The notes beneath the pieces are model-generated. The model had not been told where the DNA came from. It saw nothing but the letters and a program-made list of their open reading frames with translations, and ran no database searches. The translations under genes were made by a program, and so were the position numbers. Of a stretch of 32,541 bases of DNA, positions 3,235 through 32,063 are shown piece by piece; position 1 is the stretch's first letter; each line of letters begins with the position of its first letter. The DNA comes from Anaerolineae bacterium (lineage in GTDB: Bacteria > Chloroflexota > Anaerolineae > B4-G1 > SLSP01): the NCBI GenBank assembly GCA_003562365.1, contig PWVB01000327.1, positions 1 through 32,541 on the forward strand, in the 5' to 3' direction.

Positions 3235-5970
3235 CTAGCGTGATCCTTTCCTTTGGAGAGCCAAGCCGTAAAGCACGCCTATCACCAGGAAGGAGGCCAC
3301 GAGCCAGTGTGCTAGCATCAAGATGTCTAGGACCCGCCCGTGGACACCGATATCACCGCGTAGGTCCCGATAGGCGACCGCATCCGCAAAACCGATTACC
3401 CATCCATCCACGCGGCGTGCTTCAAGATACGGTCTGATGAACGGCCCTGCGGTAGCACTTAACCCAACACTGACCGGCAGTGGCCCGTTCCCATTGTGGC
3501 TGCGCAGCAGGAGGTTCTGCTCTATCCACCACCGCATTCGCTCTGGCTGAGACGCAAGTACAATCAGACGGGCTGCCGTCTGCGCCTCCGGCCCTTGTAA
3601 GAATTCGGCGATACCGTTGGCGTTGCCGGGAAGATATCTCCCGCTAACTGTAACGGAGTACCCGGCCTGATCCACCAGCATCGCACCAAGCCCGGCGCTC
3701 TCAGGCAAGGTGCTCACGATCAGGGTCTCCACCTCCTGTGCCTGAATGTGTCGCAGCAGCGGTATCGCGATCTGTGCCATCTCTTCAGCGTAAGCGGGGT
3801 TAATCTCTAACGCCACGAGCACCCGCTCACCGGGTGTCAGTTGATCCAGGCCAGCAGCGAGCGCGGGCACACCTACCGCAGTCTGGACGGGCGGGACCTG
3901 TGACAAGCGCGTACCCGAAGGTATCATCCAGAAGGCAGCTAGCAGAACGGCGATCAGGATCACTCCTGCCAGCAGGCGTATGATCCCCCAGCTTCCCTCG
4001 GAGCGCACGCGCTCCTGGAGGACGGGTCGCTCCACACTGCGCGGCTGTTCCAGCAGTTGCTGCCACAATTGCGCTTGCGCGATGACGGACTCAGGAAGCT
4101 CGGAGTCGGCGGAAAGCCTAGCCTCCGACGGTACATCCACCACAGACAGGGACGGCAACACTCCCGGCAGTCCCTCCAAGGGGCCTTCTGGCTCAGCGGG
4201 TGTCGCTATCCTCTCCCGAGTCAGTGACGCCTTGTCCGGCTCGTTGGGGTCGGCTCTCAGATCGCGGACCCAATCAGGGATATCCGCTGGCACCAACTCT
4301 CCGGCAGCGTCCTCAGGGCCCGTGGACAGCGCTTGTCCAGAAGGGGCAAGCGCCTGAAGCCAGGGCGGCAAGTCTGCTTTCACGGGGGCTTCGTCGTCTA
4401 CGGTCTCAGGCCGTGTCGGGACGGCCTCGTCCGCCAAGAGATCCAGATCCTTTAGCCAGTCGGGCTCCTGAGCCGGCTCATCCAGCGACGGCGGTGTGTC
4501 TGAGCTCGACCTTTCATCATCGGCATCCTCCACGAAGACGGGCGCCGTCGGTGTCAGGTCCGAGGCCTCCTCAACAATGGGGCTGACATCCCGGAGCCAA
4601 TCGGGGACGCTTACCTCCGAGACAGTCTCTTTGGTGAAGACGGCCGATACCGTCTCACCGGGAGGAGCAGGCTCGAGACCTGCCAGCCAATCCGGCAGCT
4701 CAGCCTCCTCAGTGTCATCACGCTCGCCTTCCCACGGTGGGGTCTGCGCCGTGGTCGCTGAAGGTGACGGCGACGGCCCCTGAACTGCTTCGTTGGTTAC
4801 CTCGGAATCAGCGACCTCGGCTGTAGCTGCAGCCTCTTCTGTGACGGCTTCCTCCTCAGCTGCATCCGCTGTTTCATCCGCTTCGCCTTCGGATGGCGGC
4901 TCTTGAAACTCCTGCGCCTGTGGTATCGGTTCTGCTGCGCCGTGCGGCTCCGGCCCGGACGCTTCGCCAACCGATGCCCCGGCATCCTCCAGATCGAGCG
5001 CACGAGCATCCGACAGCCATTCAGGGAGGTCCGTCTCGGAGAAGATCGAGAATGCTGTCTCACGCGTGGCCGAAGATGCCGTCGCCCCGTTCTTAGTCCG
5101 CTCTTCGATTTCCTCCGTCAGTGCGTCGTGCTCCTCCATCTCGTCGCGTTCCGCGGTGAGAGCTGGGTCTTGCTCTTCTGGCCTAGCTGTATCCACGAGC
5201 CGCTCCGATGGCGTGCTGGAGGACTGAGCGGCTTCGGGGTGGTCTAATTCCTGTTCGCTTAGCCAGTCTGGGATCGGCAACTCCCGCTCATCGAATTCAT
5301 CCCCGGCGGCTTCATCAGTCAAGCTGGACAACCAATCGGGTAGTGCTTTAGAAGCCAGCGACTGATCAGACGCCGGTTCTGTTTCCTCAGTACTGGGTTC
5401 GGTAGCCAGGGGCTCCACCGATGGAACTTCTGCACGGAGCCATTCAGGCATGGTTTCACCTTCAAACAGCGACGCGGCCCTGTCGTTGTCGACCTCCACC
5501 TCGACCGGTACGTCGACGTCTCCAAACTCCGCGTCCTCGTCGATCAGGTCCGCCAGCCAATCCGGATAGCCCCCGGCATTCTCCAGTACCTCTTGTTCGG
5601 AAACGCCAGTCTCTTCAGCCCTCTGCTCTTCATCGGGCAGACCGCGCAACCAGGCTGGCAGATCCTCGCGCTCTTGATCATCATCTTCGGTCGTGGGACT
5701 CCGCGTCGGTAGGGAGATGCCTTTCAGCGAGGAGCTGTTAGGTTCCTCAGTCGAGGAGCGCGATGCCAGTGAGTTTAGGTCCTCCTGCTGCATTAATCGC
5801 GCATTACAGTGGTCGCAGAACAGATTTCCTACTGGGTTCACCGTGCCGCATTTTGGACACCGGATCTCGGTCTGCGGAAGAATAGCGCCACAGTTATCAC
5901 ATTTTCGTCGGCTTTCCTTGTTGAGCGAGCCGCAGCTTGGACAGCGAATCATAGCGCTATCACCGTTCAT
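3235..5970 (-). CDS. Double zinc-ribbon protein with eleven PDWL-type motifs, transmembrane segment and extracytoplasmic domain
   Basis: A 911-aa modular protein. Residues 10-27 (CPSCG...CDNCG) and 38-55 (CPKCG...CDHCN) form two zinc ribbons. Residues about 60-640 are acidic, low-complexity and probably disordered, and carry eleven spaced copies of a short motif of the type [LIVMYE]P-x-W-[LV], usually PDWL followed by x-x-L: LPAWLRGL, YPDWLADL, MPEWLRAE, LPDWLSSL, IPDWLSEQ, LPEWLSDA, LPDWLAGL, VPDWLRDV, EPDWLKDL, LPPWLQAL and IPDWVRDL. A membrane helix follows at about 662-683, then a folded domain of about 200 residues, then a second helix (MLAHWLVASFLVIGVLYGLAL) and a basic tail. The ribbons and motifs should be cytoplasmic and the C-terminal domain outside. 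The start overlaps the upstream stop by 4 nt. Family function is unknown; the motif array looks like a multivalent docking scaffold (inference). Confidence 0.85.
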   Translation of the reverse strand: MNGDSAMIRCPSCGSLNKESRRKCDNCGAILPQTEIRCPKCGTVNPVGNLFCDHCNARLMQQEDLNSLASRSSTEEPNSSSLKGISLPTRSPTTEDDDQEREDLPAWLRGLPDEEQRAEETGVSEQEVLENAGGYPDWLADLIDEDAEFGDVDVPVEVEVDNDRAASLFEGETMPEWLRAEVPSVEPLATEPSTEETEPASDQSLASKALPDWLSSLTDEAAGDEFDERELPIPDWLSEQELDHPEAAQSSSTPSERLVDTARPEEQDPALTAERDEMEEHDALTEEIEERTKNGATASSATRETAFSIFSETDLPEWLSDARALDLEDAGASVGEASGPEPHGAAEPIPQAQEFQEPPSEGEADETADAAEEEAVTEEAAATAEVADSEVTNEAVQGPSPSPSATTAQTPPWEGERDDTEEAELPDWLAGLEPAPPGETVSAVFTKETVSEVSVPDWLRDVSPIVEEASDLTPTAPVFVEDADDERSSSDTPPSLDEPAQEPDWLKDLDLLADEAVPTRPETVDDEAPVKADLPPWLQALAPSGQALSTGPEDAAGELVPADIPDWVRDLRADPNEPDKASLTRERIATPAEPEGPLEGLPGVLPSLSVVDVPSEARLSADSELPESVIAQAQLWQQLLEQPRSVERPVLQERVRSEGSWGIIRLLAGVILIAVLLAAFWMIPSGTRLSQVPPVQTAVGVPALAAGLDQLTPGERVLVALEINPAYAEEMAQIAIPLLRHIQAQEVETLIVSTLPESAGLGAMLVDQAGYSVTVSGRYLPGNANGIAEFLQGPEAQTAARLIVLASQPERMRWWIEQNLLLRSHNGNGPLPVSVGLSATAGPFIRPYLEARRVDGWVIGFADAVAYRDLRGDIGVHGRVLDILMLAHWLVASFLVIGVLYGLALQRKGSR

Positions 5971-10392: not shown

Positions 10393-11046
10393 TCAATAAG
10401 TGGTGAACAGTCCGCGGTCTGGGGCATCGGTTAACACAGCGCCGAGCAGTCGGACCCGAAAACGTTCCAGTAGCTCTTTTGCCTGTTCGACCCGGTCGCG
10501 GCGGGTGTGACCGGCACGCACGACCAACAAGAGCCCATCGGTCTGTGCTGCCAATACTGAGGCGTCGACGGCGACAATCACCGGTGGTGCCTGAAAGATC
10601 ACGATGTCGACTGTCTCTTTCAGGTGCGCCAGCAGCGAGGCCATGCGGTTAGAGCCCAGAATGTCTGCAGGGTTGGGGGGTAGGGCACCGCTGGGGAGCA
10701 GGTTGAGTCCTGGCACGGCTGTCTCGGCGAGGGTGACCGGCGCTTCCTCAGTCTGCTTCAGCAACACGGTCGTCACGCCTGGTTCCTGGGGCACCCCAAA
10801 GAGTTCGTGCAGATTCGGGCGGCGCAGGTCCGCGTCCACGAGGCAGACCCGCTGTCCTCCTTGAGCCATCACCACAGCGAGGTTGGCTGCAAGATTGGAC
10901 TCCATACCCGCAGCGGTGGGGGAGGCAACGACGAAAGCCTTGAGCTCACGATCCAAGCTGGTGAAGTCCAGGTTCATCCGCAACACACGGTACGCCTCCG
11001 TCGCTGGACTTCGGGGCTCGCGCAAGGTAATCAGATGTGTATCCAT
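10393..11046 (-). CDS. CpsD/CapB-type BY-kinase homologue with degenerate nucleotide site
   Basis: A 217-aa homologue of bacterial tyrosine kinases (MinD/ParA-related P-loop proteins) that work with Wzz proteins in capsule and exopolysaccharide export. The N-terminus SPATEAYRVLRMNLDF and the Walker A' motif VCLVDADLRRPNLHELFGV (about 68-86) are canonical. The Walker A region, normally PGEGKST, reads SPTAAGMESNLAANLAV (42-58): the catalytic lysine aligns with Glu49. Walker B, normally VIIDTPP, reads VIFQAPP, with Gln for Asp at 152. The C-terminus ends FTTY with one tyrosine instead of a cluster. The ATG follows AGGAG. It is the last gene of the operon, 31 nt after the Wzz-type gene. It is probably a pseudokinase regulator of the Wzz partner rather than an active kinase. 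Confidence 0.85.
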   Translation of the reverse strand: MDTHLITLREPRSPATEAYRVLRMNLDFTSLDRELKAFVVASPTAAGMESNLAANLAVVMAQGGQRVCLVDADLRRPNLHELFGVPQEPGVTTVLLKQTEEAPVTLAETAVPGLNLLPSGALPPNPADILGSNRMASLLAHLKETVDIVIFQAPPVIVAVDASVLAAQTDGLLLVVRAGHTRRDRVEQAKELLERFRVRLLGAVLTDAPDRGLFTTY

Positions 11047-11077: not shown

Positions 11078-11749
11078 TTACTGAGAGCCGGAAGATCGCT
11101 GCACCGGAGGAATTACAGCGAGTAGTGTGAGGCCGGTATCAGCTTCGATTGCATTGGGCTCGCGTATCACACCGGCCTCAAGCCACTCCAACGCGAAGAC
11201 GACCAGTATCCCCAACACCAGGCCAAGAAGGGCACCGGCAGCTACATTGACCGTTGTCCTGGGCCGCAAAAGTCGATAAGACGGGCGGTCAATAATCTCT
11301 GCAAAAACCCGGTCTTCTCTGTCTTGCCGGTTATTCTGATCATCACGCCATTGGACCAGAAGCTGGGCCCAAGTATAGGCAATATCGTTGGCCATATCGC
11401 CATCCGTGTTGTCCACGTCGATCTTGATGACCATTATCGAGTCGTCCGCGACGATTGTTGTGTTGTCCTTGAGGACGCCCGGCTCCATGTAGAGTCCCAG
11501 CTCCTCGATCACGCGGCTGGCCCGCTGCTCGGACCACATCAGATGCGCGTAGGAACGGAGCAGTTGTTTTGCCGATTGGGTCAGGCTCAAGTCCGGTCTG
11601 GCGAGTTGAATGGAGACCTCCATGCTGGAACGGTAGATCGGCGTCGTCAGTCGACTGAACGCTAAAGCACTGATCGCGGTGACCACTGCAGCTACTAGGA
11701 TGATCCACCCACGGCGCCGCAGTATCTCGATATATTCCTGGATTTTCAC
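11078..11749 (-). CDS. Wzz-type polysaccharide chain-length/co-polymerase protein
   Basis: An inner-membrane protein that controls length or export of a polysaccharide, the usual partner of CpsD-type kinases. Visible: IQEYIEILRRRGWIILVAAVVTAISALAFS with the first membrane helix near residues 12-30, the PxYRSS motif after it, an extracytoplasmic region of about 130 residues, and a second helix (VAAGALLGLVLGILVVFALEWL) followed by a short cytoplasmic tail. The track start is GTG at 11761; I prefer GTG at 11749, which has GGAGGT five bases upstream, giving 223 aa. At this length the coiled-coil part is short, as in Gram-positive-type CapA rather than full Wzc. It lies between the zinc-ribbon gene and the cpsD-like gene in one operon. 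Confidence 0.85.
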   Translation of the reverse strand: MKIQEYIEILRRRGWIILVAAVVTAISALAFSRLTTPIYRSSMEVSIQLARPDLSLTQSAKQLLRSYAHLMWSEQRASRVIEELGLYMEPGVLKDNTTIVADDSIMVIKIDVDNTDGDMANDIAYTWAQLLVQWRDDQNNRQDREDRVFAEIIDRPSYRLLRPRTTVNVAAGALLGLVLGILVVFALEWLEAGVIREPNAIEADTGLTLLAVIPPVQRSSGSQ

Positions 11750-11810
11750 ATCCACCTCCACGCAACTAAGCGTCTGTCAACGCATCCGTCTCGTTGAAAC
11801 TGACCGCGCA

Positions 11811-29422: not shown

Positions 29423-31060
29423 GTGGCCTACGATTGGTATAAGGACGCGGTCTTTTATGAAGTCTCCGTTCGGGCGTTTGCTGATAGCAATCACGATGGC
29501 ATCGGTGATCTGGCAGGGCTAACATCGAGGCTCGACTATCTTAAGGATCTGGGCATTGATGCGATCTGGATGTTGCCGATCTTTCCCTCTCCTCTACGGG
29601 ATGATGGCTACGATGTCGCGGACTACCGCGCCATCCATCCTGACTATGGTACACTGGATGACTTCCATGATCTGGTAACCCAGGCTCACCGACGTGGCCT
29701 GCGCATTGTCGTGGAGCTGGTGCCGAATCATACCTCCGACCAGCATCCGTGGTTCCAGGCTTCGCGAGATCCAGATCATCCCGACCACGCAACCTACAGG
29801 GACTGGTACGTCTGGAGCGATACCGACGAGAAGTATGCGGAGGCGCGGATTGTTTTCCTGGACTATGAAGACTCGAATTGGACCTACGACGAGCGCCGCG
29901 GACAGTATTTCTGGCATCGTTTCTTTCATCATCAGCCAGATCTGAATTTCGACAATCCTGAGGTCCAGCGGGAGATGCTCCGCATCGTCCAGTTCTGGAT
30001 TGATCAGGGCGCGGACGCCTTGCGGATCGATGCACCACCGTATCTCTACCAACGCGAGAGCACGAATTGTGAGAACTTGCCCGAGACGCACGCCTATCTC
30101 AAACGCTTGAGAGGGCTGGTAGATGCATATGCGCCGGGGACGATGTTACTGTCGGAGGCGAATCAGTGGCCTGAGGATGTTCGCGATTACTTTGGCGACG
30201 GTGACGAGATGCATATGAATTTCCATTTTCCGCTGATGCCGCGTATCTTTATGGCCTTAGCCAAGGCTGATCGCTCTCCTATCAGCTGGGTGATGGCCCA
30301 GACACCAGACCTCCCGGATGTCTGCCAATGGGGCACTTTTCTGAGAAACCATGACGAATTGACGCTAGAGATGGTGACACCTGAGGAGCGAGCCTACATG
30401 TGGGACACCTATGCGCCTGAGTCCCGCATGCGTCTGAACCTGGGGATTCGTCGGCGATTGGCTCCTTTACTGGAGAACGATCTGGCGCGGATTCAGTGTG
30501 CCAACTCGATCCTGCTCACCCTCATCGGGTCGCCCTTTCTCTACTATGGTGATGAGATTGGCATGGGCGACGATATCTGGCTGGAAGATCGAAATGGAGT
30601 GCGCACGCCGATGCAGTGGGGGAGCGAGCCGAATGCTGGATTCACTGACGCGGACGTGGAGCCCGAGCGCCTATATCTGCCGGTGATAGACGATGAGCTC
30701 TATGGTTACCAGAAGGTCAACGTTGCGGCCCAGGTCCACGATCCCGATTCGCTGCTGAATTGGATGCGGGAGGCACTGCGGGTGCGGGCTGAATATGTGG
30801 CCTTTGGACGCGGCGATTTGAAGTTGCTAAGGCCGGATAACTGCACGGTGTTATCCTACGTCCGGCATCATCAAGATGGATCGATCTTAGTGCTCAACAA
30901 CCTCTCTTCGGAATCACAGGTCGTGACGCTGGATCTAAGCGCCCATAGACCGCGCAAGCTGCGTGACTGCTTTACCGAAGAACTGCTTGAGGCACCGGCC
31001 TCCGGACGGTGGACGCTATCCCTGCCACGCTATGGCTATCGCTGGCTGACCTTCGTCTAG
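29423..31060 (+). CDS. treS: Trehalose synthase-type alpha-glucosyl isomerase (GH13)
   Basis: A 545-aa GH13 enzyme most like maltose alpha-D-glucosyltransferase (TreS), which interconverts maltose and trehalose in the cytoplasm. Family text runs throughout: WYKDAVFYEVSVRAFADSNHDGIGDLAGLT, PSPLRDDGYDVADY, NHTSDQHPWFQ, YFWHRFFHHQPDLNFDNP. Catalytic residues are in place: nucleophile D203 (ALRIDAPPYLYQ), acid/base E245 (LLSEANQWPEDV) and the stabilising pair H310-D311 (FLRNHDELTLE). RTPMQWG and the C-terminal beta domain follow. The length equals TreS without the fused maltokinase seen in some bacteria. GTG at 29423 has GGGGGATCC upstream. RIDAPPYL has Pro where TreS usually has Val. It precedes the nucleotidyltransferase gene by 49 nt. 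Roles in compatible solute or glycogen/maltose metabolism are both possible. Confidence 0.88.
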   Translation: MAYDWYKDAVFYEVSVRAFADSNHDGIGDLAGLTSRLDYLKDLGIDAIWMLPIFPSPLRDDGYDVADYRAIHPDYGTLDDFHDLVTQAHRRGLRIVVELVPNHTSDQHPWFQASRDPDHPDHATYRDWYVWSDTDEKYAEARIVFLDYEDSNWTYDERRGQYFWHRFFHHQPDLNFDNPEVQREMLRIVQFWIDQGADALRIDAPPYLYQRESTNCENLPETHAYLKRLRGLVDAYAPGTMLLSEANQWPEDVRDYFGDGDEMHMNFHFPLMPRIFMALAKADRSPISWVMAQTPDLPDVCQWGTFLRNHDELTLEMVTPEERAYMWDTYAPESRMRLNLGIRRRLAPLLENDLARIQCANSILLTLIGSPFLYYGDEIGMGDDIWLEDRNGVRTPMQWGSEPNAGFTDADVEPERLYLPVIDDELYGYQKVNVAAQVHDPDSLLNWMREALRVRAEYVAFGRGDLKLLRPDNCTVLSYVRHHQDGSILVLNNLSSESQVVTLDLSAHRPRKLRDCFTEELLEAPASGRWTLSLPRYGYRWLTFV

Positions 31061-31109
31061 ACCGCGACTGGAGTCGCATGTTCAGTCTAAGTGGGGAGTA
31101 GATCAGACT

Positions 31110-32063
31110 ATGCAAGGTGTCATCCTAGCTGCAGGCAAAGGGTCCCGCCTGCATCCCATCACCGTGGCGCGCTCCAAGGCGATGCTGCCGATTTTGGGCA
31201 AGCCGATCGTGTCCCGCGTGATGAGGATGCTGGCTGAATGCGGTATCGACGATTTCATCCTCGTGGTCAGTCCCGAGGACTACGACATCACTCGCTACTT
31301 CCGTCGCGAGTCAACTCTGGAAGCGGACGTGCGCTTTGTCTATCAACCTGAGCGCAAAGGGATGGCCGACGCCTTGTGCTGTGCCGCCCCCCTCATCTCG
31401 CAGGACTTCGTGCTTTCTGCCTGTGACAACCTCGTCCCACAGGATGATGTGGCGCGACTGATCGCGACGATGCGCGCTGCGGAGTATCCCAATGGTGTAT
31501 TAACCTTGATGCCGGTGGTGCCTGAGCGAATTGCCAGTGGCGCCATCGTTGAGATGGACGGCGGGATGGTTACCCGAATCGTCGAGAAGCCCGATCCTGA
31601 GGAGGCGCCATCAGATATCGCCAGTCTGCCACTTTACGCTTTCTCTCGGCGGATTCTCGACTATCTTCCAGAGGTAAGACCCTCGCTGCGGGGAGAGTAT
31701 GAATTGCAGGACGCGATACAGATGCTGATCGATCGCGACGGGAAAGTGGGTGGGGTGCTTATTGAGCGTCGCTTGACCTTAACCAACGCTGCCGACCTAT
31801 TGGCGCTTAATCGTGAGTATTTGACGCACGGTGGTGACACCTCGCAGCTGGCGCCCGCAACCGTTGGACCCGGCACGCAGCTCATCACTCCGCTCCACAT
31901 TGATGAAGGGACTATTATCGGTCGGGACTGTGTCATTGGCCCTAATGTCTACATTGAGCGCAACTGCCGCGTGGGCGACGGGGCGACGTTGCGCGACGCG
32001 ATCCTTTTGCGGGGATCAAAGGTTGCCGATTATGCAAAGGTCACCCACGAGGTTATTGTGTAG
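31110..32063 (+). CDS. Sugar-1-phosphate nucleotidyltransferase with left-handed beta-helix tail
   Basis: A 317-aa enzyme that couples a sugar 1-phosphate to an NTP. The N-terminal signature is MQGVILAAGKGSRLHPITVARSKAMLPILGKPIV, with the loop GxGxRL and a lysine in KPIV. VLSACDNLVPQDD is the metal-binding aspartate loop, and VTRIVEKPDPEEAPSDIASLPLYAF is the EKP motif typical of glucose-1-phosphate thymidylyl/uridylyl transferases. The C-terminal 70 residues hold hexapeptide repeats (IDEGTIIGRDCVIGPNVYIERNCRVGDGATLRDAIL), a left-handed beta-helix that in GlmU-like proteins can carry acetyltransferase activity; here it is short and probably structural. It likely shares a transcript with the treS-like gene. 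The precise sugar and nucleotide cannot be read. Confidence 0.85.
   Translation: MQGVILAAGKGSRLHPITVARSKAMLPILGKPIVSRVMRMLAECGIDDFILVVSPEDYDITRYFRRESTLEADVRFVYQPERKGMADALCCAAPLISQDFVLSACDNLVPQDDVARLIATMRAAEYPNGVLTLMPVVPERIASGAIVEMDGGMVTRIVEKPDPEEAPSDIASLPLYAFSRRILDYLPEVRPSLRGEYELQDAIQMLIDRDGKVGGVLIERRLTLTNAADLLALNREYLTHGGDTSQLAPATVGPGTQLITPLHIDEGTIIGRDCVIGPNVYIERNCRVGDGATLRDAILLRGSKVADYAKVTHEVIV

Follow-up and report, generated by a model that had tools for sequence, protein, structure and literature searches.

Bacteria are generally held to need cycles of phosphorylation in the Wzc/CapB ring to assemble capsules and exopolysaccharides, yet some systems run without them. The described systems closest to the locus reported here include EcpK/EpsV and HfsB/HfsA, which have been described as pairs of a BY pseudokinase and a PCP-2 protein acting by direct contact; a third subfamily of PCP-2 proteins has also been put forward (PMC12004946). 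EcpK of Myxococcus xanthus, a proposed scaffold, is a stand-alone protein with the BY-kinase fold and a non-functional ATP site, and its PCP-2 partner carries no kinase domain; EcpK has lost all three Walker motifs (A, A′ and B) together with every C-terminal tyrosine, and has a C-terminal helix (PMC12004946). HfsB of the Caulobacter holdfast system is likewise a stand-alone BY pseudokinase, and is cited in the same paper as stabilising its PCP-2 partner HfsA (PMC12004946).

Active counterparts are found in Firmicutes, where the PCP-2b pairs CapB/CapA and CpsD/CpsC consist of a short Wzz protein with a cytoplasmic tail followed by a stand-alone active BY-kinase. The EX2RX2R motif of the kinase forms half of the CapB octamer interface (PMC3795738). 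In Wzc, a tail tyrosine inserted in the neighbour's pocket clamps the octamer, and phosphorylation frees that tyrosine (PMC11986026); Walker A′ is said to aid tyrosine recognition (PMC12004946). Staphylococcus aureus CapB1 and Bacillus subtilis PtkB have also been called inactive, with a pseudokinase role suggested (PMC3795738), but CapB1 retains its active-site residues.

The window analysed here, a stretch of 32,541 nucleotides from an Anaerolineae bacterium of the phylum Chloroflexota, encodes a protein of this fold (Table 1). Its match to the polysaccharide biosynthesis tyrosine autokinase model TIGR01007 scores 145.8 bits (cut-off 108), and a search of PDB chains returned CapB and Wzc. 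The AF2 model (mean pLDDT 81, pTM 0.84) has as its best PDB matches the CapA2B2 structure (4jmp, TM 0.86) and the kinase domain of octameric Wzc (3la6, TM 0.88), so that both profile and structure comparison place it in the BY-kinase Rossmann fold. Alignment with intact orthologues bears out the earlier note, which had reported the loss of the Walker A lysine and the Walker B aspartate: GKST has become MESN (G48M, K49E and T51N, with S50 kept), and a glutamine stands at the Walker B aspartate (D152Q). Also as that note had it, the Walker A′ motif (φ-D-x-D-x-R; VDADLRRP) is intact and the C-terminal tyrosine cluster is down to a single residue, Y217. Compared with CapB and CpsD, the window protein thus keeps EX2RX2R and lacks the catalytic lysine, the P-loop glycine, the Walker B aspartate and the tyrosine cluster, which makes it a BY pseudokinase, a BY-kinase fold without the catalytic residues.

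Table 1. Features of the pseudokinase locus in the window
Feature	Position	Strand	Basis or remark
Stand-alone BY-kinase-fold pseudokinase (CpsD/CapB type)	10393..11046	-	217 aa, ATG start, TIGR01007 match, AF2 model
Degenerate Walker A PTAAGMESN, residues 43-51	10894..10920	-	canonical orthologues P-x-x-G-E-G-K-S-T
Intact Walker A′ LVDADLRRP, residues 69-77	10816..10842	-	alignment with intact orthologues
Degenerate Walker B IVIFQAPP, D152Q	10582..10605	-	FDAPP to FQAPP against intact orthologues
EX2RX2R octamer-interface motif EAYRVLR, residues 17-23, retained	10978..10998	-	
Terminal Tyr217, sole Tyr of the former tyrosine cluster, last residue	10396..10398	-	
Short Wzz-type co-polymerase (PCP-2b, CapA-like), directly upstream of the pseudokinase	11078..11761	-	Wzz Pfam
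Cytoplasmic C-terminal tail of the Wzz protein, LEWLEAG...LTLLAVIPP	11105..11191	-	equivalent to Wzc/CapA juxtamembrane alphaA-betaA element

The partner in the same locus is a PCP-2 protein without a kinase domain. In a profile comparison its last ~65 residues align to Wzc 410-474, just before the kinase core, although this match is weak (whole-sequence E 2e-4). In every family locus whose flanks extend that far, the pseudokinase is immediately preceded on the same strand by a short Wzz gene, whose docking-type tail is conserved as well, and the adjacency recurs in nearly all loci read in the class. Among the window genes scanned we recognised no Wzx, Wzy or phosphoglycosyltransferase near the pair, which tells against the polysaccharide role proposed below. 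A cytidylate-kinase-like gene (PF13189; 9556-10377, plus strand) converges on the pseudokinase; here it is broken by an in-frame stop together with a change of frame, and it is intact, at about 250 aa, beside the same locus in four other genomes (G001, G002, G013 and G015). At 57 other loci, about half of those read, a sugar nucleotidyltransferase with hexapeptide repeats lies about 1-2 kb downstream of the Wzz-kinase pair; the homologue in the window (31049-32060) is 20 kb away. The window also encodes, at 3235-5970 on the minus strand, a protein of 911 aa that begins with zinc ribbons and has hydrophobic segments toward its C-terminus, the latter preceded by an acidic, low-complexity stretch with about ten spaced short motifs of the PDWLxxL type.

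We propose, with a probability of roughly three in four, that the window protein is a BY pseudokinase that acts as a scaffold for the Wzz octamer and needs no phosphorylation to do so, as has been proposed for EcpK and HfsB. It would dock on the C-terminal tail that the neighbouring short Wzz protein extends into the cytoplasm, and would form or stabilise the octamer's cytoplasmic ring; this ring would support polysaccharide polymerisation with no productive ATP binding and no tyrosine phosphorylation. The absence of ATP binding, the docking, the ring formation and the role in polysaccharide assembly are all predictions, and the regulation of Wzz without phosphorylation, suggested already in the earlier note, is read from the anatomy of the proteins. 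This scaffold reading is well supported in that the structural half of the system is kept (ring motif, Walker A′, terminal tyrosine, Wzz tail), while the phosphorylation half (P-loop, Walker B, most tyrosines and the CpsB/CapC phosphatase) is gone.

The losses are shared across the family of the window genome. Of 24 genomes of this family, 20 (the window's own included) have a recognisable stand-alone orthologue, 19 of them with a readable P-loop; G010 and G008 gave no match. Full-length orthologues are 47-76% identical to the window protein. Not one of the 19, the window protein included, has GK[S/T], an absence beyond chance. The lysine is gone in 14 and K-S is kept in five; the Walker B aspartate is present in all five lysine-keeping proteins and is replaced by Q, N, L, K or T in all 14 others. 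Seventeen of the 19 end in tyrosine, with variable residues before it. Columns conserved in intact proteins but not in the family lie mostly in Walker A and B, and Walker A′ remains nearly invariant.

When the 48 genomes of the order and the 298 of the class were searched with the family profile, most gave a match, usually a stand-alone orthologue. We read 119 class orthologues, one per genome. The P-loop is intact (GK[S/T]) in 70; 26 keep only K[S/T], with D, E, N, Q, H or some other amino acid at the last P-loop glycine; and 23 have lost the lysine or the whole motif. As the proteins were chosen as the highest-ranking matches to a profile that was itself made from pseudokinases, the 49/119 with a broken P-loop is not an unbiased rate. 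The Walker B aspartate is retained in 69/70 intact, 23/26 K-only and 3/23 fully lost proteins, and Walker A′ is kept almost throughout (first aspartate in 115 of the 119, second in 118, arginine in all). EX2RX2R persists even in the fully lost group (E 22/23, R 23/23, R 23/23). A terminal tyrosine is found in 35/49 proteins with a broken P-loop versus 10/70 intact ones.

In a maximum-likelihood tree computed with motif and tail columns removed, and rooted on fused kinases, the window's family forms one clade (support 100/99). Across the class the loss was not one event. The tree requires 18 changes between intact and broken P-loops, at least 11 of them on strongly supported branches, which rejects a single origin; the fully lost state alone requires 10 changes, 9 of them forced. 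The kinase was thus lost repeatedly, with intermediates, and since an intact P-loop is the state of the outgroup and of most class members, the changes are mostly losses. When phylogeny is controlled for, P-loop loss is not significantly associated with Walker B loss (2.6 against 0.5 pairs, median p 0.5). Its association with fewer tail tyrosines, strong in raw counts, is borderline (median p 0.06, from 4.6 against 0.1 pairs). A comparable state occurs in another class of the phylum: seven genomes of genus g238 (L237, L238, L240, L241, L242, L243 and L246), all complete, single-contig and 4.7-5.3 Mb in size, have PTPEKS for the P-loop and a tail without tyrosine, and other genera of their family keep DEGKS.

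Fused Wzz-kinases of the same class retain GK[S/T] in 22 of 22 examined, and the erosion is thus peculiar to the stand-alone locus. The CpsB/CapC phosphatase (PF19567), which accompanies the active Firmicutes pairs, was found in none of the 48 genomes of the order and in 23 of the 298 of the class, often directly downstream of an intact stand-alone kinase. Within the 119-protein set it accompanies 10/70 intact and 0/49 broken proteins (p=0.005, relatedness ignored). Two sisters from one family illustrate this: G137 has an intact kinase with CpsB adjacent, while G111 has lost the P-loop and is not among the CpsB-positive genomes.

Many genomes, the window's included (G000:C392), do encode an intact BY-kinase elsewhere, and an inactive protein might have its terminal tyrosine, so common in the family, phosphorylated in trans by that kinase, or might form mixed rings with it. 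We regard this as unlikely, though it is the strongest of the alternatives. No second BY-kinase match at 1e-20 turned up in six near-complete genomes whose P-loop is broken (G021, 95% complete; G030, G031, G037, G044 and G045, 93-96%), which disfavours an obligate partnership with an active kinase, and EcpK has been proposed to act independently of the active BY-kinases of M. xanthus (PMC12004946).

A second alternative is that the protein is a non-canonical but active nucleotide binder, holding ATP through Walker A′ and other residues around a rearranged P-loop. The near invariance of Walker A′ fits this idea, as does the K[S/T] of the 26 K-only orthologues, mostly accompanied by the Walker B aspartate; these 26 may have retained weak nucleotide binding. 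In the family, however, the loop has no glycine and mostly no lysine, several members carry indels of 1-3 residues so that its length varies by up to three, and the alignment reveals no other conserved motif in its place. This makes active binding by the window protein improbable, more so than phosphorylation in trans. Residual nucleotide, metal or substrate chemistry could nevertheless be served by the conserved Walker A′ and terminal tyrosine, which EcpK does not have.

The stepwise loss, of the glycine and then of the lysine with the Walker B aspartate, resembles erosion, and the two family genomes without a match might suggest a relaxed gene decaying toward loss. The family pseudokinases are under purifying selection: dN/dS is 0.03-0.17 for ortholog pairs (simple Nei-Gojobori counts, some ORFs having short non-coding extensions), mean pairwise identity is 59%, all 19 frames are intact and the pairing with wzz is conserved. 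Decay is thus very improbable, in agreement with the earlier note, which had seen no ordinary decay in the preserved frame; its proposal that a pseudokinase has been conserved alongside a short Wzz partner is well supported by the family-wide loss of the P-loop under this selection, the retained pair and oligomerisation motif, and the intact fused kinases. Sequencing or assembly error, conceivable in a 570-contig draft, and recent local mutation are ruled out by the same losses in independent drafts of the genus (L035-L037) and in the family's other genera; intact motifs, which in close sister genomes would have pointed to such causes, are absent from the genus and the family, though they do occur in the two sister families of the order.

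Returning to the scaffold, the retained tyrosine suggests a more specific and more tentative picture, in which the terminal residue would continue to fit into the Walker A′ pocket of its neighbour, there serving as a fixed clamp of structural use where a phosphorylatable ratchet once worked. More doubtful again is the broader scenario, in which one ancestral Chloroflexota Wzz-kinase locus underwent many independent conversions to a phosphorylation-free co-polymerase, the lone tyrosine acting as a permanent clamp in a 'frozen ratchet' version of the Wzc octamer.

The kind of protein is already known from EcpK (2025), and the proteins described here belong to it, having the same fold, the same kind of partner and no intact ATP site. 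The absence of all three Walker motifs and of all tail tyrosines is a property of EcpK and not a requirement of the kind; unlike EcpK, the Chloroflexota proteins keep Walker A′ and the terminal tyrosine, and have close orthologues whose sequences are still those of intact kinases. HfsB belongs to a Gram-negative system and has no Tyr-rich tail. Because intact close orthologues exist in the class, the pseudokinase state probably arose here independently of EcpK and HfsB, by a conversion that was stepwise and repeated. What is new is the lineage, the recurrent stepwise origin and the subset retaining Walker A′ and the terminal tyrosine; in the library of papers that we searched there was no earlier report of such pseudokinases in Anaerolineae.

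All 18 aligned family proteins match the NCBI curated 'tyrosine autokinase' model, so automatic annotation likely calls them kinases, which they very probably are not. With intact, half-lost and fully lost versions of one orthologous locus in close relatives, these genomes offer a natural series that separates the structural needs of the ring from its catalytic needs.
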